A stretch of 25,034 nucleotides of DNA, taken from a virus. A model generated the notes under the pieces. That model was not told the DNA's origin and ran no database searches. It worked only from the letters and a program-made list of their open reading frames with translations. The stretch lies in the IMG/VR virus record IMGVR_UViG_3300009609_000058, positions 1 to 25,034 of that record. One strand, given 5' to 3'. Shown here piece by piece: positions 6,604 through 19,381 of the stretch (position 1 is the first letter of the stretch; the number at the start of each line of letters is the position of its first letter). Both the position numbers and the translations under genes were made by a program.

Positions 6604-6616
6604 CATCAAACTGTGC
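6604..6616 (-). promoter_or_regulatory. GCACnGTTTRRTR motif, leftward copy
   Basis: On the minus strand this reads GCACAGTTTGATG, a full match to the motif found at eight plus-strand unit heads. The ATG at 6598 is 18 bases from its first base. It lies inside the possible TTG-started extension of the same frame, which argues that the extension is not translated. Confidence 0.5.
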
Positions 6617-6751
6617 AGGTTCGCGCAGATGATTACCACAATTATTTCTAAATTCTTCTCGTGCGCGAGCAAGTGTCTCATGGAGTGCCCAATTTGAGAC
6701 GTAATGGCATGTGGGCGTAGAGGCGGATAGCCGGGTCGCCGTGTCGCCCAA

Positions 6752-6998
6752 ATAGATTTATTCTATGTTAATTTTTGCTCCGGTGCGCACCCCAAACCCC
6801 ATACCCCCCTCTTTTTTATCACGCTATTAACCGCAGCCCTTGCCTATTGGGTTTCTGATTTTTTGGCCTCTCTATAGAGATAGTATAATATTCAATATGA
6901 GAATATATAGGGAGCCTCCAGAAATTAGAAACATATAACAAAACAAAACTCTGGCTCCCGCTCCGGCATTTTCTTATGGCCGAGTGTCCACGAAAACT
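6752..6998. promoter_or_regulatory. Divergent control region
   Basis: No gene is supported between the leftward and rightward clusters (about 6599-7010). It holds a 10-bp palindrome GGTGCGCACC (6782-6791), a C-run, a 12-bp palindrome TCTCTATAGAGA (6869-6880) and, next to it, a -10-like TATAAT (6884-6889) with only a weak -35 (TTTTGG, 17 bases upstream). Further on, GGGAGC and CAGA near 6911-6923 can pair with TCTG and GCTCCC near 6950-6960 as a bulged stem. The layout suggests a rightward promoter overlapped by an operator; this is inference. Confidence 0.45.
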
Positions 6999-7011
6999 GC
7001 ACAGTTTGATG
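6999..7011 (+). promoter_or_regulatory. GCACnGTTTRRTR motif, copy at the rightward cluster head
   Basis: Reads GCACAGTTTGATG. A GTG start codon (7011-7013) begins 12 bases after the motif's first base, the same spacing as in the protease-gene copy at 13319. Confidence 0.55.
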
Positions 7012-7181
7012 TGAAGAAATGCAAAGCGCCAGTGGACAATGACGCGATCCTCTTTCGTGACCATCATCAGGTCCGCGATCTCCACCGCACCGCGAAGCAC
7101 AATCTTCGAATGAAGAAGCGATCCGAATATGCCCGAGAAAAGCTACGTCAAGGAACTACAGAAGAACGTCGCACACATTGA
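7011..7181 (+). CDS. Small charged protein, 56 aa, possible GTG start
   Basis: The frame reads VKKCKAPVDNDAILFRDHHQ... with a strongly basic C-terminal half (KRSEYAREKLRQ). It begins with GTG inside the promoter-like motif; the frame is also open 27 bases further up to another GTG at 6984. It overlaps the next gene by 53 bases. Composition is natural but nothing is recognised, and the start is uncertain because no Shine-Dalgarno sequence exists. Confidence 0.45.
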   Translation: MKKCKAPVDNDAILFRDHHQVRDLHRTAKHNLRMKKRSEYAREKLRQGTTEERRTH

Positions 7182-7782
7182 CCGCGAGAACGCGTTCCTG
7201 CTCTACGCTGCGTTCACTGGTGATCTGGAGCGCACAGCGCACGCGCTGGGCATCCGCACTATTGATGTGCTCAACATCGCCAACGAGGACCAATGGAACG
7301 AGAAGCTCAAAGGCATCCTTGATTTGAAGAAGTCCGGCAAGCCCGGTGATATCGAGCGCGCAATCAATCGCGCGTTGAATTTCGTGCAGGCCCACCGCAT
7401 GCGCCTCATCATCGAGCGCGTGATTCGCAAGTTGACCGGCATGAGCGATGAAGAATTGGAGCAATACTTATTCACCGAAGCCAACATCGGGACATCTGAG
7501 AACCCGGTGAACTACAAGAAACTCACCACGCGACAACTGGCTGACCTCGCATCCGCAATTGAGAAGTGTCACGCCATGTCCTACGCTGCGCTCAACGACA
7601 CGACGCAAGAGCGCATCAAGCGCGACAGCAGCGGCAAGGATGAAGTAGCAGCCGGTGAACTGCACGTGCAGCTTGCGCGAGCGATGCAAGAGGCAGCCCG
7701 GAGCAAGTCACCACAGGCGCAGCTATTGGACGCACAGCTTGCCATTGCTGCCGAGGTGGCCGACGACGCCAAGAGCCAGTAA
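7129..7782 (+). CDS. Possible terminase small subunit (HTH-like protein)
   Basis: This 217-residue, mostly helical protein has residues 22-50 (AFLLYAAFTGDLERTAHALG and onward) resembling the helix-turn-helix of phage small terminase subunits, where a small hydrophobic helix is followed by an Ala-x-x-LGI turn. The middle (RMRLIIERVIRKLTGMSDEELEQYL) and C-terminus (Ala/Gln-rich) would form oligomerising helices. Small terminase marks the packaging site on DNA and feeds it to the large subunit. Against this call, the large-subunit gene is 9 kb away. Other DNA-binding regulators would fit equally well. Confidence 0.4.
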   Translation: MPEKSYVKELQKNVAHIDRENAFLLYAAFTGDLERTAHALGIRTIDVLNIANEDQWNEKLKGILDLKKSGKPGDIERAINRALNFVQAHRMRLIIERVIRKLTGMSDEELEQYLFTEANIGTSENPVNYKKLTTRQLADLASAIEKCHAMSYAALNDTTQERIKRDSSGKDEVAAGELHVQLARAMQEAARSKSPQAQLLDAQLAIAAEVADDAKSQ

Positions 7783-7784
7783 CG

Positions 7785-7890
7785 TTAAAAGTTAGGCTCG
7801 TCTAACACTTGACCCTGTATTGACAATGTATTTACATTGTATTTACGCCCATAGGTAAGCGAAACAATCTTCGGCTCACCTAACTTTTAA
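7785..7890. repeat. 12-bp inverted repeat bracketing an operator-like site
   Basis: TTAAAAGTTAGG (7785-7796) is the exact reverse complement of CCTAACTTTTAA (7879-7890). A short GTTAG/CTAAC hairpin also sits at 7791-7806. GGCTCnnCTAAC recurs directly at both ends, so this element contains both direct and inverted repetition. It follows the stop of the gene at 7782 and no gene lies inside. Confidence 0.55.
7820..7845 (+). promoter_or_regulatory. 18-bp operator-like palindrome on a -35 box
   Basis: ACAATGTA-TT-TACATTGT (7823-7840) is a perfect two-arm palindrome. It overlaps TTGACA (7820-7825), an ideal -35 hexamer. The -10 is weak (TTTACG/TTACGC at 16-17 bases; TATTTA at 14). The arrangement is that of a repressor binding site covering a promoter. 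Confidence 0.45.
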
Positions 7891-8313
7891 GCGATTCATT
7901 GAGGATTTCACACGGTTTCAGATCGACCCGGCAGTATTTGCCTACCAACATTCTAAAGAACGGCTACACGGCGATCCGCCGAACCGCCCTCGTAACCTGT
8001 TGCCAATCAGCCACTTAGCCATGTCGCCGAGTTCGGAATTGGGCTTGGGGGGGTTCGCGCGCCTGAAAGGCCGCTTACCGAGGTCACCGCGAGATGAAAA
8101 ATCGAGATCGAGGCAGCTTATGCCCGGTGTGAGATGGACGAAGTTGCCGTTTACACGGCAGTCCGGCGATACGGCGGTAAGACTTTCCGGCGAGACGCCA
8201 TGATGGCGGAATGGCGGAAGGACGAGCCGCGTTGTCAAATCTTTCTGCATATCGCACCGTTTAGTGATCAATGGCATCTAACGGCAGATTTCCAGCAAGC
8301 GGGCAGACGGTAG
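7859..8313 (+). pseudogene. Possible decayed coding remnant between 7782 and 8271
   Basis: This 490-base gap has no intact gene. One frame from 7859 reads naturally (KRFIEDFTRFQIDPAVFAYQ, then LLPISHLAMS) but has no ATG and turns into Arg/Ser/Pro-rich sequence after a run of seven G. Another frame, after a stop near 8096, reads IEIEAAYARCEMDEVAVYTA and RDAMMAEWRKDE and ends at 8313; it includes an ATG at 8134. A single -1 shift at the A-run near 8097 would join the two frames. It may be a broken gene, a sequencing error, or two chance frames. Confidence 0.3.
8254..8266 (+). promoter_or_regulatory. GCACnGTTTRRTR motif before the tail-fibre gene
   Basis: Reads GCACCGTTTAGTG. The tail-fibre ATG (8271) is 17 bases from the motif's first base, with no Shine-Dalgarno sequence between. 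Confidence 0.5.
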
Positions 8314-9068
8314 GCCCCATCGCCGATCCAGAGCAGAACGATGACGCAGTGTCAAAGTCCTACATGCTGGATCAAGGCTATGCTGTCGCCTCGGCTGTTG
8401 CATCCGCTCTTGCGGCAAAGGCTGATCTCTCCCACACCCACGCGCAATCTGATATCACAAATCTCGTGTCCGATTTAGCGGGCAAAGCCGCTTCAGTGCA
8501 TACTCATGCGCAGTCTGATATCACCAATCTCGTGTCAGCATTGGCGGGCAAAGCTTCTTCCTCGCACACTCATTCCCAATCTGATATCACCAATCTGGTT
8601 TCTGATCTCGCGGGCAAGGCTGCTTCTGTTCATACCCACGCCGGTCTTCCCGTATTATTTCGTTTAAACGCTGATTCTCAGAACTCAAGTAATTCGTCGT
8701 TCACGAATATTTTTTCGCAGGCAGTGCTGGCAAATGAGGTGTGGTCTTTTGAGTGTATCGTTTATTTTCTGACCGCCGCTTCCACTACGGGATTGGTGGT
8801 GCAGGTCGATTCGCCCGCTTCACCAGCAGCCAGCCAAATTTCCTTTACCACCTTCGAGACTGCCACGGTCATTCGGAATCTCACCGGCGCGCAAGGCGTC
8901 GCTCTCGTCGGCACCGCAGGGCTCGCTACTGTTTTGGAAGCGCGCATCTCTGGAACGATTGAGAATGGTTCCAATGCTGGGAATATTATTCTCAAGTTCC
9001 GCTCCGAAGTAAATGCCTCAGCGGTCACTGCGAAACGTGGCTCATGGGGACGCTTCTACAAGCACTAA
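8271..9068 (+). CDS. Tail-fibre-like protein with HTH-SDITNL repeats
   Basis: The 265-residue protein has three parts. The N-terminus (1-54) carries DDAVSKSYMLDQGYAV, a pattern seen in phage fibre and collar proteins, and an Ala-rich helix. Residues 55-120 hold three 22-residue repeats of the form HTHAQSDITNLVSDLAGKA, plus a final HTH at 121; HxH-bearing repeats of this sort are common in trimeric phage fibres. Residues 125-265 are strand-rich and probably form the receptor-binding knob (GLVVQVDSPASPAASQ; FRSEVNASAV). It would act at the virion surface in host recognition. It has its own promoter-like motif, so it may be expressed separately. Confidence 0.75.
   Translation: MASNGRFPASGQTVGPIADPEQNDDAVSKSYMLDQGYAVASAVASALAAKADLSHTHAQSDITNLVSDLAGKAASVHTHAQSDITNLVSALAGKASSSHTHSQSDITNLVSDLAGKAASVHTHAGLPVLFRLNADSQNSSNSSFTNIFSQAVLANEVWSFECIVYFLTAASTTGLVVQVDSPASPAASQISFTTFETATVIRNLTGAQGVALVGTAGLATVLEARISGTIENGSNAGNIILKFRSEVNASAVTAKRGSWGRFYKH
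8433..8630 (+). repeat. Three 66-bp in-frame direct repeats
   Basis: The three 22-codon fibre repeats are also close at DNA level (the CAATCTGATATCAC-like core recurs with few changes), so they probably arose by recent tandem duplication and could change in number by slippage or recombination. Confidence 0.8.
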
Positions 9069-9086
9069 TTAACTAATAGTTAATTA
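9066..9086. terminator. A/T-rich hairpin at the end of the tail-fibre gene
   Basis: TAATTAACT-AAT-AGTTAATTA is a 9-bp perfect stem with a 3-base loop that begins on the fibre gene's stop codon and is followed by TTTA. The A/T-rich stem is weak for a Rho-independent terminator, so it may instead be an mRNA 3'-end structure or a protein site. Confidence 0.35.
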
Positions 9087-9098
9087 TTTACACCGCTT

Positions 9099-9116
9099 TG
9101 ACACCAATTGGTGTCA
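9099..9116. repeat. 18-bp palindrome, copy 2 (intergenic)
   Basis: Identical to the copy at 5677-5694 (TGACACCAATTGGTGTCA). It lies 30 bases after the tail-fibre stop codon. Read on the plus strand in the frame matching copy 1, the DNA gives LTPIGV followed by ILLRESPTSR and a stop. Confidence 0.8.
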
Positions 9117-9225
9117 TTCTTCTCCGTGAATCCCCTACCTCGCGGTAAGCAGTCTTCCTATTGTCCCTCTCGACCGCGTTTGCTATGGTGTGCCTAACAA
9201 ATGAAACAACTATTCGAAACAAAAA

Positions 9226-9600
9226 GTGAAACCAAATCATCTCTACCATCGTGATATCTTCTTCCCCGAGGACCTGTTGCAACTGTCAAAGCAGAAGCAC
9301 ATTCAACTGACCTATGCGCCGACCGCCCGCGAGCACGCGAAGCATGATGCCCTGCCGATCCGTGGCGGCATCGATGTGACGTGGACCAACATCGTCGAGG
9401 TCGGCAGCGCGCAATATTTGAAGCCGTCCGATTCCATCGAACGAGTGGTCGTCCGGGAACCATTGGATGCTGACACCGATCTGGTTTTCGACATCAAGAC
9501 TGATCTCCGGTCTGGCCATGGCACCGTGGTGCGAACTACTCGTGCGAATGCGCGCAAGCCGCACTACTCCGCGCGCCTCTCGGAATATATTTCCTGCTAA
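9226..9600 (+). CDS. Hypothetical protein, 124 aa, GTG start
   Basis: The sequence after residue 25 is strand-rich (IQLTYAPTAREHAKHDALPI; GGIDVTWTNIVEVGSAQYL), which would suit a small virion or tail component, but no family was recognised. The only start upstream in frame is GTG at 9226. An ATG at 9201 opens a different frame of 17 codons (MKQLFETKSETKSSLPS) that overlaps it, which may be a leader peptide or may mark a frameshift near the start. Confidence 0.55.
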   Translation: MKPNHLYHRDIFFPEDLLQLSKQKHIQLTYAPTAREHAKHDALPIRGGIDVTWTNIVEVGSAQYLKPSDSIERVVVREPLDADTDLVFDIKTDLRSGHGTVVRTTRANARKPHYSARLSEYISC

Positions 9601-9633
9601 CACCTCCCAACAAACAACAACAAAAGCAAAAAC

Positions 9634-10029
9634 ATGAAATCATACTGTATACTTCTCGCTCTCGCTCTTGTTGGCTGCACCTCGGTTCGTGAGTCGGGCC
9701 AGATCGGTGACGTGAAGATTTATCGGGCCACTGCCCGTGGAGTCTTTTCGCCGTCGTCTACCACGCTCATCGCCGCGCCAGCCAACGGTGCGAAGAACGT
9801 CGAAGACCTCCAAGTCCTCTCCGCCGCGCATGGCCCCGGGTTCGTCCCTGCCGTCGCGCAAGCGGGCGGGATCGCTGGCGGCGCTGCACTGCTTCGTCCT
9901 TCGCGGAATTCCACTTCCGTCTCGGGCACGAGTAATGCCGCTGCAACTGCCAATGGTGGCACTAGCACAGGTGGCGGCACTCAATTCGTTCCGCCCGGCC
10001 ACGTGAACAACCCCAGCCAGAACAACTAA
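9634..10029 (+). CDS. Small lipoprotein, 131 aa
   Basis: The N-terminus is a lipoprotein signal: Lys2, a hydrophobic run, then the lipobox LVGC at residues 12-15, with Cys15 as the lipid-attachment site. The mature part has a strand region (GDVKIYRATARGVFSP), a Gly/Ala-rich stretch and a disordered Ser/Thr/Gly/Asn tail ending PSQNN. It should be anchored in a membrane of a diderm host. Phage lipoproteins of this size act in superinfection exclusion or as outer spanins; the sequence does not decide. Confidence 0.75.
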   Translation: MKSYCILLALALVGCTSVRESGQIGDVKIYRATARGVFSPSSTTLIAAPANGAKNVEDLQVLSAAHGPGFVPAVAQAGGIAGGAALLRPSRNSTSVSGTSNAAATANGGTSTGGGTQFVPPGHVNNPSQNN

Positions 10030-10033
10030 AAAT

Positions 10034-10083
10034 TGTGCGGCCCCCGTCAGAAAGTTGTGGTATTTTTTCTCCGGGGGCTGCAC
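10034..10083 (+). terminator. Large hairpin, 13-bp arms, after the lipoprotein gene
   Basis: GTGCGGCCCCCG(T) at 10034-10046 pairs with CCGGGGGCTGCAC (10071-10083) around a 24-base loop containing TATTTTTT. No T-run follows, so it is a poor classical terminator. Its 3' arm runs into the promoter-like motif at 10080, so it may insulate or control the RNA block that follows. Confidence 0.4.
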
Positions 10084-10092
10084 AGTTTGGTA
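10080..10092 (+). promoter_or_regulatory. GCACnGTTTRRTR motif before the RNA block
   Basis: Reads GCACAGTTTGGTA, followed by GCTTAGAG, which resembles the TAGAG that follows the copies at 16178 and 19369. No protein gene follows for over 700 bases, so the unit it heads would be the RNA block. Confidence 0.5.
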
Positions 10093-10130
10093 GCTTAGAG
10101 TGGTGAAGGGCACCATTCGATAAGAGGGAC

Positions 10131-10160
10131 TTGACAAGTGATTGCTCGATAGTGTAGGTT
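10131..10160 (+). promoter_or_regulatory. Sigma70-like promoter for the RNA block
   Basis: TTGACA at 10131-10136 is a perfect -35; an 18-base spacer leads to TAGGTT (10155-10160), a weak -10. It would give the RNA block a host-driven promoter in addition to the phage-type motif upstream. Confidence 0.35.
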
Positions 10161-10534
10161 AAGCACACTCGGCACTAGGCCGGGTAGGTCCAGAAACGGG
10201 CGAGCGGCAGAGCGGGGAAGTCCCCGCAAAATTAGTGGGCGATATCTGCGCGAGTGGATGCGCCCCCGTTGAGCACGGCGTCAGGGCCACGATAGCGTCC
10301 ACCAATTTTTGGCCGGTAGCTTAAGTCAGAGCACTCGGGCAGAGCGGACTCGTTTCATGAGGTAGCGCGGCGCGGGGGGGACGGAGGTAAAATCCTCCCC
10401 GGTCTTTTGATCTTTGAAAATTTAATGGGCCGGAGTTTGAAGGAAAGGCGGGTCATAACCGCTGAGTAGATCAAACGCAATAGCGGAGGAATCACGCGCG
10501 TGAGTCCCGAGTGTTTCCCGGCCCGCCAATTTAT
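10161..10534 (+). ncRNA. Candidate large structured RNA upstream of tRNA-Met
   Basis: No protein frame is credible here, yet the strand is full of nested complementary arms. There is a hairpin GCGGGG-AAGT-CCCCGC (10212-10227). A 14-bp helix with one mismatch joins 10228-10241 and 10296-10309, with small hairpins inside. GGCCGG (10311-10316) pairs with CCGGTC (10399-10404) and encloses GGAGG/CCTCC. GGGCCGG (10427-10433) pairs with CCGGCCC (10518-10524) and encloses GTTTGA/TCAAAC and GCGG-GTCATAA-CCGC. Three coaxial domains in a row next to a phage tRNA recall the GOLLD and ROOL classes of large phage RNA; I cannot test membership. Ends are approximate. Confidence 0.5.
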
Positions 10535-10611
10535 TGCGGGATGGAGCAGTCCGGTAGCTCAGCACGCTCATAACGTGAAGGTCGTAGGTTCAAATCCTGC
10601 TCCCGCAACCA
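10535..10611 (+). tRNA. tRNA-Met (CAT), initiator-like
   Basis: A complete 77-base cloverleaf: acceptor TGCGGGA/TCCCGCA with encoded ACCA end, D stem GAGC/GCTC, anticodon loop CTCATAA (10567-10573) with CAT at 10569-10571, and T arm GTAGG-TTCAAAT-CCTGC. The A11-T24 pair and overall sequence follow bacterial initiator tRNA. Two initiator marks are altered: position 1-72 is a T-A pair instead of the usual mismatch, and the three G-C pairs of the anticodon stem have become A-T, C-G and G-C, with a G/A mismatch at the stem's base. It may start translation or serve as an elongator Met tRNA. Confidence 0.92.
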
Positions 10612-10809
10612 ATTTGTCATGGTGTAAATGTAGCACTCCGGCTCGCGCCGGTGGCGTGGCCTCGGAAGCCACTGATGAACCCCGTAGCTGTTCAGGGGGA
10701 CGCTGAATAGCTCCACTTTGTGGAACGAGGTTCGTCGCCTTGTGAAAGGCTTCTGGCGATTAAAGTTGTGGCTAACTGGTGTTCAGCCCGCACGCCTCGC
10801 GACCCTTTT
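10612..10809 (+). ncRNA. Hairpin-rich non-coding stretch after the tRNA
   Basis: No gene is supported until the ATG at 10810. Five hairpins stand in a row: CCGGC-TCGC-GCCGG (10638-10651), GTGGC-CTCGGAA-GCCAC (10656-10672), CCCC/GGGG (10680-10699), TCCAC-TTT-GTGGA (10712-10724) and GCCTT-GTGA-AAGGC (10737-10750). They may be the 3' part of the structured RNA that surrounds the tRNA, or the leader of the next mRNA. Confidence 0.4.
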
Positions 10810-11322
10810 ATGAAAAAACTAATAGTAAGTATATTACTGACTTGTTTAAACATCCTCCACGCCGACAACGTCGCGTTCTCGTGGCGGGCCAACACCGAGC
10901 CCGATCTCGCGGGCTACTATCTCTACTATGGGCCGACGATTGGGATGCCGGTCAATTCGTTTCCGCAACTCATTCAAGGCACGCATGGCGCGCTGAACAT
11001 GCCGCCGCACTACTTTGCGTGGCTGACTGCGGTGAACGTCGGCGGATACGAGAGCGATCCGGCTTACCTCGTGTATCGCCCAAAGGTTGCCGAGGTGTCT
11101 GTGCTCGAATCGCCTACGCTTCAATTCAATGGGCAGCCGCTCACGAAACTGGAAGTGTTCCGGGCAGATGAGACGGTGTTCCCGGCCCTGACCCCGCCCT
11201 CCCTAAAAATTTATCAGGGACAGATCATCATTTTCTACCGGGGCCAGTCTTTTCCAGTTCCGGTGCCGATAACTGGCGAAAAGAATTTTTTCATTTCGTT
11301 CGTGACATCTCGGTCGATTTGA
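10810..11322 (+). CDS. Exported fibronectin-III-like protein, 170 aa
   Basis: The N-terminus (MKKLIVSILLTCLNILHA) is a good signal peptide with a likely cut after Ala18. The next part has the fibronectin type III pattern: VAFSWRANTEPDLAGYYLYY, then FAWLTAVNVGGYESDPAYL, where the Trp and Tyr cores and the xVNxxGxES turn are typical. Such domains act in carbohydrate or cell-surface contact. The C-terminal 70 residues are strand-rich and not recognised. The frame extends up to 10720, but the signal sequence fixes the ATG at 10810. A signal peptide on a phage decoration domain is unusual and suggests export by the host. Confidence 0.65.
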   Translation: MKKLIVSILLTCLNILHADNVAFSWRANTEPDLAGYYLYYGPTIGMPVNSFPQLIQGTHGALNMPPHYFAWLTAVNVGGYESDPAYLVYRPKVAEVSVLESPTLQFNGQPLTKLEVFRADETVFPALTPPSLKIYQGQIIIFYRGQSFPVPVPITGEKNFFISFVTSRSI

Positions 11323-11324
11323 CC

Positions 11325-11337
11325 GCACTGTTTGATG
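11325..11337 (+). promoter_or_regulatory. GCACnGTTTRRTR motif before a small-gene run
   Basis: Reads GCACTGTTTGATG; the ATG of the 50-residue gene (11339) lies 14 bases from its first base, leaving no space for a ribosome site. Confidence 0.55.
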
Positions 11338-11338
11338 T

Positions 11339-11491
11339 ATGGCAACGACTCACAATCATAAACCCGCTTACATCCTCGACATTCGACCCGGCACGTGGCA
11401 TCTGAAACCGGTGCGCACCGTTGCTGGTCCCGCGCAGTGGACTTTTTACTTCCTCTGCTTCAAGGTTACGAAGACCAGCTATGTCGCTTGA
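11339..11491 (+). CDS. Small hypothetical protein, 50 aa
   Basis: Reads MATTHNHKPAYILDIRPGTW and continues to a strand-like WTFYFLCFKVTKTSYVA end. It has a natural composition but no known motif. It follows the promoter-like motif directly and overlaps the next gene by 11 bases. Confidence 0.5.
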   Translation: MATTHNHKPAYILDIRPGTWHLKPVRTVAGPAQWTFYFLCFKVTKTSYVA

Positions 11492-11693
11492 TCCCGGAAA
11501 TATCATCGACCTCATGCCCTATCTCGAAGGGCAGAAGTTCGGCTGGACCGTGGACATGACCCACGCGGTCTTGAAGCATGGGGAGAAAGCCCCGCTCGAA
11601 CGTCCGCCGATCAATCCATACACTGGAGAGGTATCGGCGCTTGCGTGTTTGAAGACGACCGTGTTTCCGCCGAACATGGGAGATATAAAGTAA
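11481..11693 (+). CDS. Hypothetical protein, 70 aa
   Basis: Begins MSLDPGNIIDLMPYLEGQKF; contains a likely helix (MTHAVLKHGEKAPLE) and ends VFPPNMGDIK. The frame is open 60 bases further up, but ATG at 11481 overlaps the end of the preceding gene only slightly. Its stop and the next start share a base (TAATG). Function unknown. Confidence 0.55.
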   Translation: MSLDPGNIIDLMPYLEGQKFGWTVDMTHAVLKHGEKAPLERPPINPYTGEVSALACLKTTVFPPNMGDIK

Positions 11694-11872
11694 TGCCCTA
11701 CACCAAACGCAAACTGAAAAACGGCAAGGTCCGCGTCACCTCTCCGAATGGGGTGAAGTCCAAGGGCAGCACGCCCGAGAACGCGAAGAAGCAGGTCCGT
11801 TTGCTCCAAGCAGTGGAGCATGGCTTCAAGCCCACGCACCGGGATGCGATCAGAAAGAAGATGGGCGTATGA
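11693..11872 (+). CDS. Small basic protein, 59 aa
   Basis: MPYTKRKLKNGKVRVTSPNG, then KSKGSTPENAKKQVRLLQAV: a short strand pair followed by a helix. This layout is known from small phage proteins of unknown role that carry a Ser/Thr-Lys helix. The ATG at 11693 uses the last base of the preceding TAA, so I prefer it to the upstream in-frame Met at 11645. High Lys/Arg content suggests nucleic-acid contact. Confidence 0.6.
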   Translation: MPYTKRKLKNGKVRVTSPNGVKSKGSTPENAKKQVRLLQAVEHGFKPTHRDAIRKKMGV

Positions 11873-11955
11873 GACCGACAATCCTGACACGCATCCTGCT
11901 CGCGGTCATCGCCACCATCGCGTTTGCGCTGTCGTTCGCAATCTTTTTCTTATGA
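11869..11955 (+). CDS. One-helix membrane peptide, 28 aa
   Basis: MRPTILTRILLAVIATIAFA and SFAIFFL: one membrane helix with an N-terminal Arg pair. It overlaps both neighbours by ATGA (11869-11872 and 11952-11955). Its position just before a cell-wall-type peptidase makes a lysis or export partner possible, but the sequence alone does not show it. Confidence 0.6.
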   Translation: MRPTILTRILLAVIATIAFALSFAIFFL

Positions 11956-12431
11956 GATTCTATTTCTACCGGGGCAAGGGAATTTGGGCTGCGCTGATCC
12001 GCTGGTTCACGCGCAGCAAGTATGCACACATGGCTGTCGTTTTCGAGGACGGCACGGTCTACGAGTCCGTGCCCGGTAAGGGCGTCATCAAGGGCACGTT
12101 GAAGTCCACCGAGGGGGTTACACCGTTCTGCTATAAGATGGGCGCGCGACCAAACTCGGAAGCGGCTCGGAAATTTTGCGAGTCGGAACTCGGCACCGGT
12201 TACGACTACTGGGGCTGCATTTGTTTTCTGATTGGCATCCGGCAGCGTCGCAGCGCGTCTCGATACTTCTGTAGCGAGTTCGGCGCGGACGCGGCGAAGG
12301 TTGCCGAGGTAGCGTTGCAAGAGCGCGTTGAGTCCTCGGTGTTGTCGCCGGATATCTGCGCAATGTCGCCGGTGATCATGGTTGATTACACGCGCCGGTT
12401 CCAGTGGGACCACGTCGGAAGATATTCTTGA
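11952..12431 (+). CDS. Papain-like (NlpC/P60, YiiX-type) peptidase or amidase
   Basis: This 159-residue protein shows the permuted NlpC/P60 pattern. His26 lies in SKYAHMAVVF after a first helix (IRWFTRSK), followed by DGTVYESVPGKGV. The nucleophile Cys107 is in RYFCSEFGAD, and the C-terminal part has the usual SPDICA near-end motif. Enzymes of this fold cut peptide or amide bonds in cell wall, lipid or protein substrates. In a phage it may help lysis or entry. The ATG at 11952 overlaps the membrane peptide's stop; the frame itself is open to 11820. Confidence 0.75.
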   Translation: MRFYFYRGKGIWAALIRWFTRSKYAHMAVVFEDGTVYESVPGKGVIKGTLKSTEGVTPFCYKMGARPNSEAARKFCESELGTGYDYWGCICFLIGIRQRRSASRYFCSEFGADAAKVAEVALQERVESSVLSPDICAMSPVIMVDYTRRFQWDHVGRYS

Positions 12432-12456
12432 CAAGCGCGCCGGAATCTGGTAAGAT
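12428..12456 (+). promoter_or_regulatory. Sigma70 promoter, -10 six bases before ATG
   Basis: TTGACA (12428-12433), a 17-base spacer and TAAGAT (12451-12456). Only six bases separate the -10 from the ATG at 12463, so the expected transcription start falls on or near the start codon. The -35 overlaps the peptidase gene's stop codon. Confidence 0.7.
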
Positions 12457-12462
12457 CACTCC

Positions 12463-12807
12463 ATGATCGGACTATACGGAAGCATCGCTGGACAAACATT
12501 CGCCGCTGCGAAACATCTCTCTGATGAACCGCCGCATTGGATGGCCCCGGATACAGATTGCATGGGGCACCCCACGCCGGGCTACTGGCGACAATTCTTG
12601 CGTTGCTCGGACGGTTATATTGTAATCGGCATCGGCGTCTATGCGGAGGCAGCCACGGCGCAGGCAAAGAAAATGCGCGATGATCGCGAGGCGACTTTGA
12701 AACTCCCGCCCATAGAACGTCTGAAGCTACTGGCTGCGGGGAGTCTCTGCGACCAAGAGATGAAAGAGGCGATCCGGCTTCTGATCCAACTTTTGGTGAA
12801 AAAATGA
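12463..12807 (+). CDS. Hypothetical protein, 114 aa
   Basis: The N-terminus is Gly/Ala-rich (MIGLYGSIAGQTFAAAKHLS), with His/Trp/Pro in the middle and a helical C-terminus (EMKEAIRLLIQLLVKK). It has its own host-type promoter, unlike most neighbours, so it may be expressed early or constantly. No Shine-Dalgarno sequence fits before the ATG. Function unknown. Confidence 0.6.
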   Translation: MIGLYGSIAGQTFAAAKHLSDEPPHWMAPDTDCMGHPTPGYWRQFLRCSDGYIVIGIGVYAEAATAQAKKMRDDREATLKLPPIERLKLLAAGSLCDQEMKEAIRLLIQLLVKK

Positions 12808-12935
12808 AAGCACTGTTTAAACGCATCCGAAAAGCGTTCCGATTGTGGATCAGACACAACGAAAATAACACGAAATATCTCGGCTTCATAAAATGTTTGG
12901 AAGACGCCGGAGATTTCGTTGACGATCTTCACTGA
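12804..12935 (+). CDS. Small basic protein, 43 aa
   Basis: MKALFKRIRKAFRLWIRHNE at the start is an amphipathic, strongly basic helix; the rest (YLGFIKCLEDAGDFVDDLH) is acidic. It overlaps the preceding gene by ATGA. It might bind membrane or RNA, but nothing specific is recognisable. Confidence 0.5.
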   Translation: MKALFKRIRKAFRLWIRHNENNTKYLGFIKCLEDAGDFVDDLH

Positions 12936-12940
12936 GGTTT

Positions 12941-12953
12941 GCACTGTTGGGTG
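12941..12953 (+). promoter_or_regulatory. GCACnGTTTRRTR motif, weaker copy
   Basis: Reads GCACTGTTGGGTG, differing from consensus at the third T. The next ATG (12991) is 50 bases on and, unlike most genes here, has an AAGGAA ribosome site. Confidence 0.4.
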
Positions 12954-13263: not shown

Positions 13264-13270
13264 TCCTCTC

Positions 13271-13296
13271 GGGGTTCCCGCTTCGGCGGGAATCCC
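13271..13296 (+). terminator. Rho-independent terminator
   Basis: An 11-bp stem GGGGTTCCCGC/GCGGGAATCCC (one G-T pair) with a TTCG tetraloop, 8 bases after the stop of the fibronectin gene. The downstream T-content is modest (TTGCCATTTTC). Confidence 0.75.
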
Positions 13297-13318
13297 TTGC
13301 CATTTTCATTCCTGCACT

Positions 13319-13331
13319 GCACTGTTTAATG
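13319..13331 (+). promoter_or_regulatory. GCACnGTTTRRTR motif before the protease gene
   Basis: Reads GCACTGTTTAATG; GTG start at 13331, 12 bases from the first motif base. It stands between the terminator and the protease gene, exactly where a promoter is required. Confidence 0.6.
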
Positions 13332-14134
13332 TGAACACACGACTGAAGAAATTCCTGAAGTCGCGCCTCGGCGCGTGGACTGTTGCATTGCTGGTTACCG
13401 CCTCTATGGTCGGCAGCCGGACCATTTCGACAAAGGTGGACTACTGTCGCATGCAACAGTCGGTTGTGCTCATTCAGGCCAGCGATGGTCAAGGCTCTGG
13501 CGTTGTGATGGAACGTGTCAACGAGCAGGGCCGAACGCGCGTGTTCATCTGGACCGCGAACCACGTCGTTGAGAATGACAACAAGGTGAAGATCGTGAAG
13601 AACATCCGCACCGAAGGCCATCGTGCCGGGCAGGCTGAGTTCACTGCGGTCGTCATCGGCAGAGACAAGGCGCGCGACGTTGCGCTTCTATGGCTCGATG
13701 CTCCGGCTAAATATTTTCGCGCCGCTGAGTTTGCGCCTTCGGCCCCAATCGCCGTGGGAACTCCGCTCACTCATGTCGGCAATGTTCAAGGGATCGCGTT
13801 CGAGGATAGTGTCAGTAATGGCATCCTCTCACAGGTGGGTCTCAAGCCCGAGGGTTGGCCATGGGAGATGACCGATCAAGCGGCACTCGCTGCTTACTTC
13901 GGTTCAAGTGGTGGTCCAATTTTTCGCACGCACAATGGAGATGTTGTCGGCCTCACCTGTGGTGGCGTCGTCGGCTCCGGGTTCATGAACTTCGTGCCCG
14001 TGCGCGTGATCGAAGATTTTGCAAACGGCGCGGTGCTGCATTGGGCGGTGCGTGGCGACTGGTGCCCCGGCGATGGATTGTTGAACGGGCTGGCGAACAG
14101 GGAAGTGCAAGTGAAAACCTTTAGTGTAAATTAA
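13331..14134 (+). CDS. Trypsin-like serine protease, membrane-anchored
   Basis: This 267-residue protein has the chymotrypsin/HtrA catalytic triad in order: His78 in IWTANHVV, Asp116 in KARDVALL, Ser193 in FGSSGGPI. Residues 14-28 (GAWTVALLVTASMVG) form an N-terminal signal anchor or signal peptide, so the enzyme should work outside the cytoplasm. No PDZ domain follows, unlike full DegP. Start choice is GTG, placed in the promoter-like motif; the next in-frame Met (26) lies inside the hydrophobic segment. Possible roles are processing a surface protein of host or virion, or disabling a host defence; none is shown. The next gene begins two bases later, so the two are probably co-transcribed. 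Confidence 0.85.
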   Translation: MNTRLKKFLKSRLGAWTVALLVTASMVGSRTISTKVDYCRMQQSVVLIQASDGQGSGVVMERVNEQGRTRVFIWTANHVVENDNKVKIVKNIRTEGHRAGQAEFTAVVIGRDKARDVALLWLDAPAKYFRAAEFAPSAPIAVGTPLTHVGNVQGIAFEDSVSNGILSQVGLKPEGWPWEMTDQAALAAYFGSSGGPIFRTHNGDVVGLTCGGVVGSGFMNFVPVRVIEDFANGAVLHWAVRGDWCPGDGLLNGLANREVQVKTFSVN

Positions 14135-14136
14135 TT

Positions 14137-14985
14137 ATGGCAGCACAACCCGGTGACGGAAAATATCACATCCTTTGGAAACTCGTCGAGTCGGTAGGCG
14201 GCGTCCCCCGTCAAGGCGACTCGCTTCGCGATCTGCTCGCGCGTTATCTGCGTGACATCGGTGGAACTCCCGCGCAAGGGGATCACTTTTACAATCTGTT
14301 GGTAAAGGTGGTGATCATCAAAGGCGGCACGCCGCAGCCCGGCGACAACGAGTGGGACCTTCTTGTCGAATGGCTCCAAGCAGAGGGTGTGTGCCCGAAA
14401 TGCGGTGACTCGGTTCACGATCTGTGGTTGAAAGTTTTGGCGCTCCCTTTATTGCCTGAGGGTCCGGTGATGGTATCCATCGCTGATGAGGAAGCGCAGA
14501 TTGCAGACCCCGGCGCTTATCTGAACACTCACTATGTTTTAATTCAGACCTCCGAGGACGGGGTTAGTGGTTGGACTAACGGGTTTGAATATCCCGTAGA
14601 CCAGTCCCCGTTGAATTTGGCCTTAGGTGGTGCGGGCGGTAAATTCGCCCGAGCCGCGTATACCACCGGCAACGCTGATCCGGTGACCCAGTGGTCAACC
14701 CCCGTGTTCGTGCTCCCGAACGTCCCGTTGTTTGCGTGGGTGAACGTCAACACCTTTTTCGTCAGCCCCACGCTCGCGGGCGGTTATCTTCAGGTCCAGC
14801 ACGCCCCTGATGTTGGTGGTCCTTTCACCGACTTTCTTGCCGGTGTCGCGACGCCCGGGGCAGATCATACCCTCGACTTCACCGGACAGGGTGAACCGGG
14901 CGGTCTGTGGTATCGTGGCCGAGTCTCGTTCGATCAGGTGAACTGGTCCAATTGGGGCAACGCCGCTTGGGACGACAACTCTTGA
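14137..14985 (+). CDS. Protein with five 21-residue GD..LL repeats and a strand-rich C-domain
   Basis: Residues 4-107 hold five tandem units of about 21 residues: xxGDxxxxLLxKxLxxxGGTP (for example QGDSLRDLLARYLRDIGGTP at 26-45). Each should form a helix ending in a Gly-Gly-x-Pro turn, so the region is a small solenoid. The rest (108-282) is strand-rich with repeated Gly/Pro turns and a WSNWGNAAWDDN end, reminiscent of carbohydrate-binding or fibre domains. It follows the protease at two bases. A structural or adhesion role in the virion is my reading; the family was not identified. Confidence 0.65.
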   Translation: MAAQPGDGKYHILWKLVESVGGVPRQGDSLRDLLARYLRDIGGTPAQGDHFYNLLVKVVIIKGGTPQPGDNEWDLLVEWLQAEGVCPKCGDSVHDLWLKVLALPLLPEGPVMVSIADEEAQIADPGAYLNTHYVLIQTSEDGVSGWTNGFEYPVDQSPLNLALGGAGGKFARAAYTTGNADPVTQWSTPVFVLPNVPLFAWVNVNTFFVSPTLAGGYLQVQHAPDVGGPFTDFLAGVATPGADHTLDFTGQGEPGGLWYRGRVSFDQVNWSNWGNAAWDDNS

Positions 14986-15010
14986 CGGGACTTGACAGCC
15001 ATGTTATAGT
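14982..15010 (+). promoter_or_regulatory. Sigma70 promoter, -10 six bases before ATG
   Basis: TTGACG (14982-14987), a 17-base spacer and TATAGT (15005-15010), followed six bases later by ATG at 15017. The spacing matches the promoter at 12428 exactly. The -35 overlaps the stop codon of the repeat protein. Confidence 0.7.
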
Positions 15011-15016
15011 GGCTGC

Positions 15017-15232
15017 ATGAAGTATTCAGTCAAGACGCTACGTTCAGCGGGATTGGAAGCCCGCTGGTCCCGCAATCGTCATGGCGCTCCCATCATCGTC
15101 GCCCGAAAGGCCGGTGAAAAAACTTGGTGGCACGTGGGCCAAGATATGTGGAAGCGCATGATGCAGATCGGCATCGTTCCTGCGTTTGAACAGCACACAC
15201 TTCTCGGAGACATTTTCAGCATCCCGGTATGA
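15017..15232 (+). CDS. Small basic protein, 71 aa, ahead of the recombinase
   Basis: MKYSVKTLRSAGLEARWSRN, then an Arg/Lys/Trp-rich middle. The start resembles a helix followed by strands and could bind DNA. It is driven by the host-type promoter just upstream and overlaps the recombinase gene by ATGA, so a regulator or accessory factor of the recombinase is possible. No family was identified. Confidence 0.55.
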   Translation: MKYSVKTLRSAGLEARWSRNRHGAPIIVARKAGEKTWWHVGQDMWKRMMQIGIVPAFEQHTLLGDIFSIPV

Positions 15233-15897
15233 ACGTCGTAGGCTACATTCGGGTCAGCAGCACTGGCCAGATTAGCGGTGACGGCCCGCAGCGTCAGGAA
15301 GACGCGATCAGGAAATTCTGCGAGGCTCACAAAGTAAATCTCGCGGTGACGTATCTGGAGGCAGGCGTCAGCGGGACGGTGGAGGCGATGGACCGCGAAG
15401 CGTTCGCGGCGATGGTGGCCTACATCGAGAATAAGAAGGATATCTCCGCCGTCGTTGTAGAGCGGCTCGACCGCCTCGCCCGTGACCTGATGGTCTCGGA
15501 AATTTTGCTCACCGAACTCCGTAAGCGCGGAATCAAAGTTTTTTCGGCGGACCAAGGTGCGCTCATTGATATGGCGAACGATGAAGTCGATCCAACTCGC
15601 AAATTGATTCGCCAGATTATCGCTGCGCTTGCGGAGTGGGAAAAGTCGCAACTAGTTTTGAAGTTGCGAGTTGCGCGCGAGCGAAAACGGAAACTGACGG
15701 GCCGATGCGAAGGCGTCCTTCCATATGGGCGCACTGGGGCGGAACGCGCGACACTGGAGACAATCCGGCAGTGGCAGCGGCAGAAGATGTCACTTACGGA
15801 TATTGTCTACTGGCTCAACAAGGGCGGAATTAAAACCCGCATGGGCCGGGAGTGGACGAAGAACAATCTCAATCAAATGCTTCGTAATCAACCATGA
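15229..15897 (+). CDS. Serine recombinase (resolvase/invertase family)
   Basis: The catalytic domain is clear: GYIRVSS with Arg8 and Ser10, the nucleophile that forms a phosphoserine link to DNA, then ERLDRLARD with Asp81, Arg82 and Arg85. The long E helix (DEVDPTRKLIRQIIAALAEW) follows. The C-terminal part (TLETIRQWQRQKMSLTDIVY; INKG-like turn; RMGREWTKNNLNQML) is a short recombinase-type DNA-binding region. At 222 residues it lacks the zinc ribbon and coiled coil of large serine integrases. It is closer to IS607-like or invertase-type enzymes that act on short paired sites. It lies in one host-promoted unit with its two neighbours. Candidate sites: see the 18-bp palindromes. Confidence 0.9.
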   Translation: MNVVGYIRVSSTGQISGDGPQRQEDAIRKFCEAHKVNLAVTYLEAGVSGTVEAMDREAFAAMVAYIENKKDISAVVVERLDRLARDLMVSEILLTELRKRGIKVFSADQGALIDMANDEVDPTRKLIRQIIAALAEWEKSQLVLKLRVARERKRKLTGRCEGVLPYGRTGAERATLETIRQWQRQKMSLTDIVYWLNKGGIKTRMGREWTKNNLNQMLRNQP

Positions 15898-16094
15898 ATG
15901 ATGCACTGCTACAGTTTATAAATGGACGCCGGGCCGAAGTGGTCGCTGCGTTTAAACGAGATGAGGAACTCGCGCTCCGGCGCGCGCGCATTCAAAACGG
16001 GGCTCACCCGGATTACCTCAACGGGCACCCCAAAGACCAAGAGAAAGGCAGACTCGTGCCAAAGAAACGCAAAAAGAAACAGCGCGGTTACTAA
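15894..16094 (+). CDS. Small basic protein, 66 aa
   Basis: Begins MNDALLQFINGRRAEVVAAF, helical, then a strongly basic end (RLVPKKRKKKQRGY). The start overlaps the recombinase stop by ATGA and a terminator follows 21 bases after its own stop, so it closes the recombinase unit. The basic tail suggests DNA or RNA binding. Confidence 0.55.
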   Translation: MNDALLQFINGRRAEVVAAFKRDEELALRRARIQNGAHPDYLNGHPKDQEKGRLVPKKRKKKQRGY

Positions 16095-16115
16095 ATTTTC
16101 CCACATCCCCACCCG

Positions 16116-16149
16116 AAGGCCCGGAGAGAAATCTTCGGGCCTTTTGATT
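16116..16149 (+). terminator. Rho-independent terminator after the recombinase unit
   Basis: AAGGCCCG (16116-16123) pairs with CGGGCCTT (16136-16143), followed by TTGATTTTC with a T-rich run. This is a good classical terminator. Confidence 0.85.
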
Positions 16150-16177
16150 TTCTCGTGGTATATGCTCTGGGATAAAC

Positions 16178-16190
16178 GCACAGTTTAGTA
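16178..16190 (+). promoter_or_regulatory. GCACnGTTTRRTR motif before the small RNA and packaging genes
   Basis: Reads GCACAGTTTAGTA followed by GAG; shares AGTTTAGTAGAG with the portal-gene copy apart from one base. It lies between the terminator at 16116 and the structured leader. Confidence 0.6.
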
Positions 16191-16285
16191 GAGAGCACCT
16201 GTGCAGGTCTGAACAAGAGTAACGCTGCCAATGGGGCACGGCTCTCGACCCCGATGAGGGGTAGATTGGTGCCCCATTTTTATTT
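16191..16285 (+). ncRNA. Candidate pseudoknotted small RNA or attenuating leader
   Basis: Between the promoter-like motif and the ATG at 16286 lies a compact fold. AATGGGGCAC (16230-16239) pairs with GTGCCCCATT (16269-16278) in 10 bp and is followed by TTTATTT, which makes it terminator-like. ACCCC/GGGGT (16248-16262) makes an inner hairpin. GAGAGC (16191-16196) is complementary to GCTCTC (16241-16246), which lies in the loop of the 10-bp stem, so the two together would form a pseudoknot. ACCT/AGGT adds a small 5' hairpin. It could be an independent 95-base RNA or an attenuator controlling the genes downstream. Confidence 0.5.
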
Positions 16286-16588
16286 ATGGAAGTATTTGCA
16301 TACTATGACTGTTCCCCCAGTGCTCCGAAGAATCAACCGGACTTGGTAGTCCACTGGGAACGACGCTGGCGTGACCTCGGGCATAAGCCGCGCTTGATCA
16401 CCGCCCGGCACGCGCGCCGGAGTAAATTCTACGCCCGGCGAAAGGATCGTCCCGGGATGCTCCCACTTCTGGCGATGCACGCGGTCGGTGGCGGGTGGTT
16501 CGCGCCCTTCGACGGCTCGCGGGTGAAGATGAATAAGACGGCGCTCGAAAGGTTCTTCAAGAGCCGCGCTCGCAAGTTTCGACCGTAA
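16286..16588 (+). CDS. Hypothetical protein, 100 aa, coupled to terminase
   Basis: MEVFAYYDCSPSAPKNQPDL begins with a strand and an acidic loop, followed by a helix with WERRWRDLGHKPRLI and a very basic C-terminus (RFFKSRARKFRP). The first 45 residues look like the start of a sugar-transfer (GT-A-like) fold, where a strand leads to a helix and then a second strand, but it is far too short for an enzyme. Its stop shares a base with the terminase start (TAATG), so translation is probably coupled. Confidence 0.55.
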   Translation: MEVFAYYDCSPSAPKNQPDLVVHWERRWRDLGHKPRLITARHARRSKFYARRKDRPGMLPLLAMHAVGGGWFAPFDGSRVKMNKTALERFFKSRARKFRP

Positions 16589-18525
16589 TGCTCCCGGAGA
16601 ATCTACGACCCTTCGCAAAGGAAGTGGCCGCACTGGTCCATAAAGAACAGATGCGCGAAGCCGCGCAGATGGTCACCGACTTTGCCCGGTTGAAGTTCAT
16701 AGTGGACTCCGACAGTCCGGTCAAGACTCTGCCCCCGCTCCAGACTTATCTGCACTATCTGCTGAACAATGGCGGCATGGAGGAAGCGGCGCAACTGCTC
16801 TGGTCTCCAACGCAGTTCACGCCCGAGCCAAAATACACACAGGACCTCTGGAAATTTTTCGATGAGTCCAGCATGGGTCTCATCATGGGCGCGGCATCCT
16901 GTTCCAAGTCGTATGGGATTGGTGTGCGTCTGTTCCTCGAATGGATTCGTGACCCGGAGTGGACCACGGTAAAAGTTCTCGGCCCCAGCGAAGCGCACTT
17001 GGAGGCAAATCTTTTTTCACACCTCGTGCGGTTGCATGAGACTGCGAAGTTGCCGATGCCCGGCGAGGTCGGCGAGCTATTCATCGGGCTGGATCGTCGC
17101 AATCAGGTGTCGTGCATGATGGGCGTCGTCATCCCAATCGGGAAGGTGAAGAAAGCGAGTCGCTTGCAAGGTAACAAGCGCATACCGCGCACGCGCGAGC
17201 ATCCGATCTTCGGGCCTCAGTCGCGCATGTTCATTTTCATCGACGAAATTGAGAATGTATCAGCGGGCCTCTGGTCCGATGTGGACAACGTCCTGTCACA
17301 GATTCAAGAGGAAGACGGAGGTGGTTTCAAAATCTTCGGCGCTTACAATCCCACGAACCAAACCGATGAAGTCGGCAAGCGCGCTGAGCCACCGTTCGGT
17401 TGGGAACGCTTCGATGTGGAGACGCACTACCGATGGAAGTCCACGCGCGGCTGGGATGTGATCCGGCTCGATGGCGAGAAGTCGGAGAACGTCCTCCAGA
17501 ATCGCATGGTGTTCCCCGGCTTGCAGACGCGCACTGGTCTGGAGAAAATCGCGCGTAACGCGGGCGGTCGTCAGGCAGGCGGATACTTTTCGATGGCGCG
17601 CGGCGCTTACCCACCTTCGGGTGTGGAACTGACGATCATTCCCCCGGGCATGCTCACGAAGTGGCGCGGCGAATACATCTGGTATGGTGAACCCAAGCCT
17701 TGCGGCGGGTGCGACCTCGCGCTCGAAGGTGGCGCAGCAGCCGCGTTCGCGATGGGCCGCTGGGGGAAGGCCACTGGTGTCAAGCTGCCACCCTCTCTGG
17801 AATTTCCAAACGGCCAGACGGTAATGTTCCGCGACGAGAACACTCAGGGTGTGATCCCGCGCACCGTGATTCAGGTGGACAGTATTTTCGCGCTGGCCAA
17901 GGGTGACAGTGTGTTCATGGCCGATCAACTCATCGCACTGTGTCGCAGGTCCGGCATCCGGCCTGAATACTTTGCGTGCGACAAGACCGGCCACGGCGTG
18001 GGCGCGTTCGACCTGATGAAGAACATGTGGAGCGGTGCCATCCACGGAGTAAATTACTCTGGAGGTTGCAGCGACTCGCGCATCATGCAGCAGGACTCCG
18101 ATCCGGCCAACGAGATGTATGATCGCATCTGCACGGAACTGTGGTTTGCATTGCGGGCGTTCGGCGAGTTTGGATTCCTCATGATTCATCCCAACGTAGA
18201 CATGACGAAACTCACTCCGCAACTGACGCAGCGGAAGTATCGTCCCTCTGGCGCGAAGTCAAAGGTGGAGTCGAAGAAAGATTTCATGAGCCGTGGTTTT
18301 TCTTCACCAGACGAAGCGGATGCGCTTACCCTGATCGTTCATGCTGTCCGGCGCGGTGCGATGCTCGTCCCTTCCATGACGGGCGAGGACATAGGCGAAG
18401 GATCATCGACCGAGTCTGATGATGGCTGGTGGAACGGCAGCGGCCAAGGCAACGACCCAACGATGGAACAGGACACGCTGGAGATATCCACGATGTCGGA
18501 ATTTTTGCAGATGAGCCCAAACTAA
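16588..18525 (+). CDS. terL: Terminase large subunit
   Basis: The 645-residue protein has both engines of a packaging motor. ATPase: Walker A-like GAASCSKS at 101-108 with Lys107, Walker B MFIFIDE at 214-220 with Asp219 and Glu220, and a coupling-motif region near GAYNPTN (251-257). Nuclease of RNase H fold: Asp376 in CGGCDLALEGG, Asp465 in YFACDKTGHG, and Asp575/Asp578 in SSPDEADAL. It cuts concatemeric DNA and drives it into the prohead through the portal. Residues 1-80 form a helical N-terminal extension of unknown role. The phosphate loop has Ser-Cys-Ser where many have Gly-x-Gly, as often in this family. Confidence 0.95.
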   Translation: MLPENLRPFAKEVAALVHKEQMREAAQMVTDFARLKFIVDSDSPVKTLPPLQTYLHYLLNNGGMEEAAQLLWSPTQFTPEPKYTQDLWKFFDESSMGLIMGAASCSKSYGIGVRLFLEWIRDPEWTTVKVLGPSEAHLEANLFSHLVRLHETAKLPMPGEVGELFIGLDRRNQVSCMMGVVIPIGKVKKASRLQGNKRIPRTREHPIFGPQSRMFIFIDEIENVSAGLWSDVDNVLSQIQEEDGGGFKIFGAYNPTNQTDEVGKRAEPPFGWERFDVETHYRWKSTRGWDVIRLDGEKSENVLQNRMVFPGLQTRTGLEKIARNAGGRQAGGYFSMARGAYPPSGVELTIIPPGMLTKWRGEYIWYGEPKPCGGCDLALEGGAAAAFAMGRWGKATGVKLPPSLEFPNGQTVMFRDENTQGVIPRTVIQVDSIFALAKGDSVFMADQLIALCRRSGIRPEYFACDKTGHGVGAFDLMKNMWSGAIHGVNYSGGCSDSRIMQQDSDPANEMYDRICTELWFALRAFGEFGFLMIHPNVDMTKLTPQLTQRKYRPSGAKSKVESKKDFMSRGFSSPDEADALTLIVHAVRRGAMLVPSMTGEDIGEGSSTESDDGWWNGSGQGNDPTMEQDTLEISTMSEFLQMSPN

Positions 18526-18526
18526 T

Positions 18527-19096
18527 ATGCAAAAGATCAACGTTAATCTTTTTCCCAAAGGCGGATACATCTTCAAGGATAGGGACGGGACCACGCACGT
18601 GAGCGTGCGCAGTTGGCGTGATGTGATCAATCGTGTGGACTCATATCGACGCCTCAACAACCTTCCGATTGGAGACCCGGAAAAAGAAGTGCTCGAACAA
18701 GCGTGCCAGAGAAACCCGGGCCACTGTTACGAAGACACCGCTGCTCCGGTAAAGAGTTCCACCGCGCGCTCGACGATTAAATCAGCGGTGCTGGCGTGGC
18801 TGGCTGGGATTCGACGCGCGAAGGACACGCTCACTTATGTTTCCCCCGAGACGGCAGCCAAGCGCACCGAGACGTGTGCCAACTGTCCGTTCAACATCAC
18901 CCTGAAGCAAGGGTGCGCGCCCTGTCAGACTTTTATCGCGGAGATGCGCAAGAGCATTTTGCGGAATCGCAACGCGGACTCGCGCCTCAACGCATGCGAG
19001 AAATTTTCTCGCGACACTGGAGTGATGGTGCATCTCGATTCGATATCTGAGAAGCGCGACGATCTCCCGGACCATTGCTGGCTGAAGATAAAATGA
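18527..19096 (+). CDS. Cys-rich zinc-binding-like protein, 189 aa
   Basis: Residues 117-133 carry CANC...GCAPC (Cys117, 120, 130, 133), and Cys157 and Cys184 follow, so at least one zinc ribbon is likely. The N-terminal half has a strand start (INVNLFPKGGYIFKDRDG) and a helix (SWRDVINRVDSYRRLNNLP). The ATG follows the terminase stop by one base and the gene overlaps the next by ATGA. Position between terminase and portal suggests a head-assembly or packaging role; this is inferred from order only. It shares Cys spacing with the next gene and may be related to it. Confidence 0.7.
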   Translation: MQKINVNLFPKGGYIFKDRDGTTHVSVRSWRDVINRVDSYRRLNNLPIGDPEKEVLEQACQRNPGHCYEDTAAPVKSSTARSTIKSAVLAWLAGIRRAKDTLTYVSPETAAKRTETCANCPFNITLKQGCAPCQTFIAEMRKSILRNRNADSRLNACEKFSRDTGVMVHLDSISEKRDDLPDHCWLKIK

Positions 19097-19350
19097 TTTT
19101 CCGTTGGCACACTCCTTTTCGTTATGCCGCTGCGCAGGTGCGCAGGTTGTTCGCATGGATGCTCGATTATGAGACCACCGTCACGGACGCTGAATGGGGC
19201 GACCGGCGCAAGACATGCGAGCAATGCGAGGAATTGGTAGACGAGCAGTGCCGGATTTGCACCTGTTTCGTGGACGCAAAGACCTTTCTGGCTCTGGAGC
19301 AGTGCCCCAAGCGCAAGTGGAAACGCATCTGGAGGCGAAAAAGTCAATGA
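19093..19350 (+). CDS. Small zinc-ribbon protein, 85 aa
   Basis: Residues 42-71 contain CEQCEELVDEQCRICTC and then ECP-like QCPKRKW: Cys42, 45, 53, 56, 58 and 71. The pattern CxxC-x7-CxxCxC-F-x3-K-T...CP-x2-KW is a known small phage zinc-ribbon type. The frame is open 18 bases further up, but ATG at 19093 overlaps the preceding stop (ATGA). It ends very basic (KRIWRRKSQ). Likely a partner of the larger Cys-rich protein before it. Confidence 0.7.
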   Translation: MIFRWHTPFRYAAAQVRRLFAWMLDYETTVTDAEWGDRRKTCEQCEELVDEQCRICTCFVDAKTFLALEQCPKRKWKRIWRRKSQ

Positions 19351-19368
19351 CAAATCTCCGTAAAAACA

Positions 19369-19381
19369 CCACAATTTAGTA
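19369..19381 (+). promoter_or_regulatory. GCACnGTTTRRTR motif before the portal gene
   Basis: Reads CCACAATTTAGTA, followed by GAG; two changes from consensus. The portal ATG (19387) is 18 bases from the first motif base, with only AGAGTT between. Confidence 0.45.

Follow-up and report, generated by a model that had tools for sequence, protein, structure and literature searches.

Nine copies of a short motif, GCACNGTTTRRTR, stand ahead of genes and RNA blocks in a viral metagenome record, and the question they raise is which RNA polymerase reads them. The whole stretch of DNA analysed, here called the window, is 25,034 bases long, with a GC content of 0.55, and looks like a fragment. Three readers had been proposed: a phage sigma factor, a phage RNA polymerase, or a host polymerase modified by the phage.

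The repeated element and its -35 partner

The nine copies, eight on the plus strand and one on the minus, were recovered at the coordinates and on the strands of the original prediction (Table 1). Seven are exact (6604 on the minus strand, 6999, 8254, 10080, 11325, 13319 and 16178), and the inexact ones likewise carry the changes described, one mismatch at 12941 and two at 19369. Random occurrence does not account for the exact copies: seven were observed, whereas 100 dinucleotide shuffles gave 0.02 on average and never more than 1, and the reversed motif, used as a control pattern, had 0 exact matches in the window. At the two-mismatch level the window holds 17 matches against 8.8 expected, which is near noise, so the case for the copy at 19369 comes from where it lies, from the -35 ahead of it (ATGACA-17-CACAAT) and from its synteny at the portal gene. 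A tenth copy, the exact GCACCGTTTAGTG at position 5620 of contig G015, lies just past the window's end with a perfect TTGACA upstream; this contig is 99.9% identical to the window over 12.7 kb and continues the phage rightward. An occurrence of GCACTGTTT at 12810 falls within coding sequence and was left out of the count. The window motif was unranked in both an initial 13-mer search and a later 8-mer word search.

Table 1. Positions of the motif copies in the window, with two host-type promoters for contrast
Feature	Position	Strand	-10	-35 or -35-like hexamer	Start or headed feature
Core GCACAGTTTGATG	6604..6616	-	CACAGT 6610-6615	-35-like GTGGTA 6634-6639, spacing 18	Predicted +1 6604; ATG 6 nt beyond
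Core GCACAGTTTGATG	6999..7011	+	7000-7005	Weak, ATGGCC 6976-6981	Predicted +1 = G of GTG, ORF 7011-7181
Core GCACCGTTTAGTG	8254..8266	+	8255-8260	TTGTCA 8232-8237, spacing 17	Tail-repeat gene, ATG 8271
Core GCACAGTTTGGTA	10080..10092	+		-35-like GTGGTA 10057-10062	RNA block with tRNA-Met
Core GCACTGTTTGATG	11325..11337	+		-35-like GTGACA 11302-11307	ATG 11339
One-mismatch copy GCACTGTTGGGTG	12941..12953	+		TTGACG 12919-12924	Leadered gene, ~38 nt to ATG 12991
Core GCACTGTTTAATG	13319..13331	+		TTGCCA 13297-13302	Predicted +1 = G of GTG 13331, trypsin-like protease gene
Core GCACAGTTTAGTA	16178..16190	+		-35-like GTGGTA 16155-16160	~90 nt structured RNA ahead of packaging genes; syntenic copy G001 7254
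Portal promoter ATGACA-17-CACAAT-TTAGT-A (two-mismatch motif copy)	19347..19381	+			ATG 19387
Host sigma-A-type promoter TTGACA-17-TAAGAT-cactcc-ATG	12428..12465	+			Also leaderless
Host sigma-A-type promoter TTGACG-17-TATAGT-ggctgc-ATG	14982..15019	+			Also leaderless

The sites head the tail-repeat gene, the protease, the packaging region, the portal, RNA blocks and one leftward cluster. The labels portal and packaging (terminase) were taken from the earlier reading and from gene order; the corresponding window proteins had no match in Pfam or PHROGs. Two terminators had been placed at 13271 and 16116: the second corresponds to a terminator-like hairpin at 16115-16144, whereas near the first the scan places one at 13285-13301. 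The RNA between the promoter at 16178 and the next ORF (16190-16282) is structured over ~90 nt, with a minimum free energy of -36.9 kcal/mol (z -2.8) and a terminator-like stem; it has a counterpart in relative G001 at 7266-7340 and no Rfam match, and may be a small RNA or an attenuator. The RNA block at 10092-10800 contains one tRNA-Met (10535-10611); several other stretches in it look like tRNA but are not recognised by ARAGORN or Rfam. Further, a small serine recombinase of 222 aa with a Resolvase domain is encoded at 15229-15897 and is present in all ten relatives compared.

The view that the copies share no common -35 did not hold: upstream of CACNGT, at a distance of 17 (or 18) bp, there is a TTGACA-like hexamer. 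When the ten copies (the nine plus that on G015) are aligned at a spacing of 17, 37 of their 60 -35 positions agree with TTGACA (nominal p 2e-9). Resampling ten upstream positions 20,000 times never gave this score, even with the best of five spacings allowed. With the copies aligned on CAC, five hexamers are in register at 17 (TTGTCA, TTGACG, TTGCCA, ATGACA and TTGACA) and five lie one base farther out (GTGGTA three times, GTGACA and ATGGCC). Because the TTGACA-like hexamer stands 17 bp upstream of CACNGT, the latter is taken as the -10. It lies upstream of TTTRRT, to which this role had been assigned and which was rejected, as the -35 would then be 22-23 bp away. CACNGT keeps the A and the T that are most important to sigma-70 proteins. 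The five nucleotides TTRRT that follow it are the discriminator and the final R is likely the +1, in which case most copies would start transcripts at an ATG or GTG or a few bases before it. Judged from the sequence, the -35/17 bp/-10 geometry is of the type used by a sigma-dependent holoenzyme. The phage -10 (CACNGT or, in relatives, SACTRT) does not have the TANNNT form of the sigma-A class; a repeated promoter consensus unlike that of the host stands ahead of phage transcription units.

Placement at start codons

The predicted +1 falls on the GTG of the protease gene and of the ORF at 7011, and four other window genes have predicted leaders of 2-6 nt. The same placement is seen across 91 family sites in 12 genomes, where an ATG or GTG (counted if it opens a frame of at least 40 codons) occurs 3-12 nt past the -10 at 67% of sites compared with 10.7% of random positions, the commonest distance being 5 nt. 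Shine-Dalgarno-like words are at about background level in most genomes tested. Given the closeness of the element to start codons, leaderless or almost leaderless transcripts are expected. The host-type promoters at 12428 and 14982 also place the +1 on an ATG, which suggests that the host may translate leaderless mRNAs generally.

Lineage-specific versions and the sigma gene in relatives

Searches with the terminase and the portal recovered relatives on dozens of contigs, some of 69-75 kb and several with terminal repeats. Most of them are without the exact motif; the idea that it is a private feature of the window phage was dropped when per-genome word searches revealed diverged versions: GGCACTGTTTA in G001, GCACTGTTT in G006 and G019, TCACTGTT in G003, TGACTATTA in G009, CGACTRTT in G017, ACACTGTTTAC in G018, GAGACTAT in G031 and CACTANTA in G026. 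In places these stand at genes corresponding to those of the window. For example, a promoter variant is found at the portal start in G001, G002, G003, G006, G009, G010 and G012. In an unbiased search for words near starts the family ranked first in G006 (10/15), G009 (9/12) and G026 (7/9), and ranked high in G017, G018 and G003. Pooled, SACTRTT near ORF starts accounts for 99 of 432 occurrences against 31 expected (p ~1e-24), and reversed, shuffled or scrambled, and complement controls of this word were without clear enrichment there. The motif was at few sites or unconvincing in G012, G002, G008, G011, G028 and G030, all of which have the sigma gene described below. Across eight genomes, 55 of 71 sites are on the strand of the portal and structural genes; G014, G017 and G026 each have four or five sites on the opposite strand. 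This strand bias and the genes headed fit middle and late promoters.

The spacing of the -35 recurs in relatives. In 19 genomes, pairs of TTGACA and SACNRHT peak solely at 17 bp (76 compared with ~28 at other spacings from 8 to 30), whereas TTGACA/TANNNT pairs are barely enriched when tested in the same way (107 versus ~83). Individually, G014 (16 sites), G031 (7), G018 (7), G017 (8) and G025 (3) have a TTGACA-like hexamer at 17 bp with scores reached by none of 5,000 null sets in each. The signal is weaker in G003 and in G001, for which the listed optimum of 16 equals 17 in the register used for the other genomes. No TTGACA-like -35 was found in G006, G019, G009 or G026, so the -35 is different or missing there. 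No simple rule was seen that connects residues in region 4 of the sigma with the -35; one candidate, that the region 4.2 residues QxTH go with a TTGACA -35, was dropped because G026 breaks it.

Of the three proposed readers, the phage sigma factor is well supported, as a sigma-70-family gene was found in all ten near-complete relatives examined. It was recognised in G012 as a 210-aa protein with sigma region 4, adjoining a DUF5906 gene; homologues occur in the ten near-complete genomes and on further contigs, including G028 and G030. The protein has ~200-220 aa and two domains, regions 2 and 4. Pfam detects region 4 in 15 of 16 members and PHROG sigma families match 16 of 16, and the best PDB sequence match of the profile is FliA (6pmi_F, E 1.3e-16). 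The predicted fold, with a mean pLDDT of 82.5, has two confident helical domains joined by a low-confidence linker and matches PDB sigma factors. Against 50,697 named phage records the phage sigma gave one weak partial match, to a Staphylococcus phage.

The window, a 25 kb fragment, is without a sigma gene, and sigma queries did not recover a sigma contig of the window phage itself. The lineage nearest to it is represented by G001, whose portal is 77% identical, and G025. These contigs are 100% identical over 5,014 bp at their ends (G001:24750-29763 and G025:27548-32561) and are for this reason taken as parts of one phage; the sigma gene is carried on G025. G014, with a portal 78% identical and the other of the two lineages closest to the window phage, also carries one. 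The window phage presumably has its own sigma gene. Among the 50,697 named phage records the portal of this group had no match, and among cellular records a related portal was found just once, on L150 (48% identity). This 12.7 kb contig belongs to a Candidatus Peribacteraceae MAG and is possibly a host hint or possibly a mis-binned phage.

Two further observations concern gene content. Other matches resembling sigma region 4 pass the Pfam cut-off at G012:34370-34465, G018:1755-1838 and G008:40607-40693, in frames of ~100-120 aa that are possibly regulators. Six large genomes encode a protein of 2,174-2,892 aa (L069:1004-8869 and equivalents); the single one scanned had only DUF7178 and PHROG matches of unknown function.

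Candidate readers and known systems

The best explanation, and a highly probable one, is that the host core RNA polymerase with a phage sigma factor reads a bipartite promoter family, mostly at middle and late genes, giving leaderless or short-leader mRNAs. The sigma-70-family protein, with its regions 2 and 4, would redirect the host core enzyme to promoters composed of a TTGACA-like -35, 17 bp, a -10 (CACNGT in the window phage), 5-6 bp and a purine at +1. The targets would mostly be the portal, packaging, protease and tail genes together with the RNA blocks, with mRNA 5' ends at the start codon or within a few bases of it.

The host primary sigma, assisted by a phage co-factor in the manner of T4 MotA/AsiA, could instead use the ordinary host -35 and tolerate the odd -10. 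The TTGACA-like -35 with its 17 bp spacer is as for host sigma-A, and the A and T needed most by sigma-70 proteins are in place. However, the departure of the -10 from TATAAT is constant within each lineage, every large relative encodes a sigma of its own, and the window also holds true TATAAT-like promoters, which makes this reading unlikely. An alternative sigma of the host, such as an ECF sigma, would agree with sites that are not of the classical sigma-A type, but the consensus shifts among related phages, which a sigma co-evolving in the phage genome explains more easily, and it is in the phages that a sigma gene is conserved; we regard this as very unlikely.

A single-subunit or multi-subunit phage RNA polymerase has only a slim chance of being the reader. 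The G009 version TGACTATTAGGGG somewhat resembles the T7 promoter CACTATAGGG, although a T7-like polymerase promoter was judged unlikely, and the very large protein of six genomes is function-unassigned. Yet no polymerase family matched: an Rpb2-type subunit was not found in the relatives by a search that detected its positive controls, and single-subunit polymerases had no match in ten genomes, a weak negative because the control genomes stayed silent too. Further, the partner hexamer at 17 bp is characteristic of sigma-type recognition. Finally, a role in translation or RNA processing, to which the position just ahead of start codons might point, is almost certainly wrong, as the copies at 10080 and 16178 head RNA blocks without an adjacent ORF, a copy follows the hairpin at 16115, and the element has a fixed -35 partner.

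Phage-encoded sigma factors have precedents. Those of Bacillus phage SPO1, gp28 and gp33/gp34, use bipartite -35/-10 promoters at middle and late genes; the arrangement proposed here is similar but has a different consensus. T4 late promoters have only a -10, TATAAATA, and gp55, likewise a sigma-like factor for late transcription, is without region 4, which the sigma of these phages has. FliA/sigma-28 and other sigma-70-family factors match the phage sigma by sequence and fold, but at ~200-220 aa its layout is nearer to ECF factors and its promoter is different.

Phages phiEco32 and 7-11, the latter of Salmonella, each have their own sigma and promoter class for structural genes, with host sigma-70 promoters used early (PMC4331800). 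The phages described here similarly pair a phage-borne sigma with a distinct consensus before structural genes. Unlike their single extended -10-like block, with a TGATGT core in 7-11 (PMC4331800), several lineages here have a TTGACA-like -35 at 17 bp, and leaderless placement is seen here whereas the passages drawn on from that study describe no leaderless design. Portal and sigma searches of the 50,697 phage records returned no portal or sigma homologue from the phiEco32/7-11 group. What appears to be new is the phage group, which is uncultivated and whose lineages each have a promoter version of their own. It is set apart by this divergence of the promoter from lineage to lineage, by a TTGACA-like -35 that several lineages place at exactly 17 bp, and by leaderless placement.

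Collectively, these results supply a transcription programme for a phage group without a cultured member in the collections searched, and allow late genes and true start codons to be called from sequence alone. The series of diverged consensus sequences, mostly with a sigma gene in the same genome, lends itself to the study of how sigma specificity changes, and leaderless starts at most sites inform on translation in the host. A wider and more tentative reading, possible but short of probable, is that sigma and promoter co-evolve as pairs across the clade, with a lineage-specific -10, some -35 elements changed or missing, and most late mRNAs leaderless. If true, the natural series formed by these phages would allow direct reading of the sigma recognition code and of leaderless late expression.
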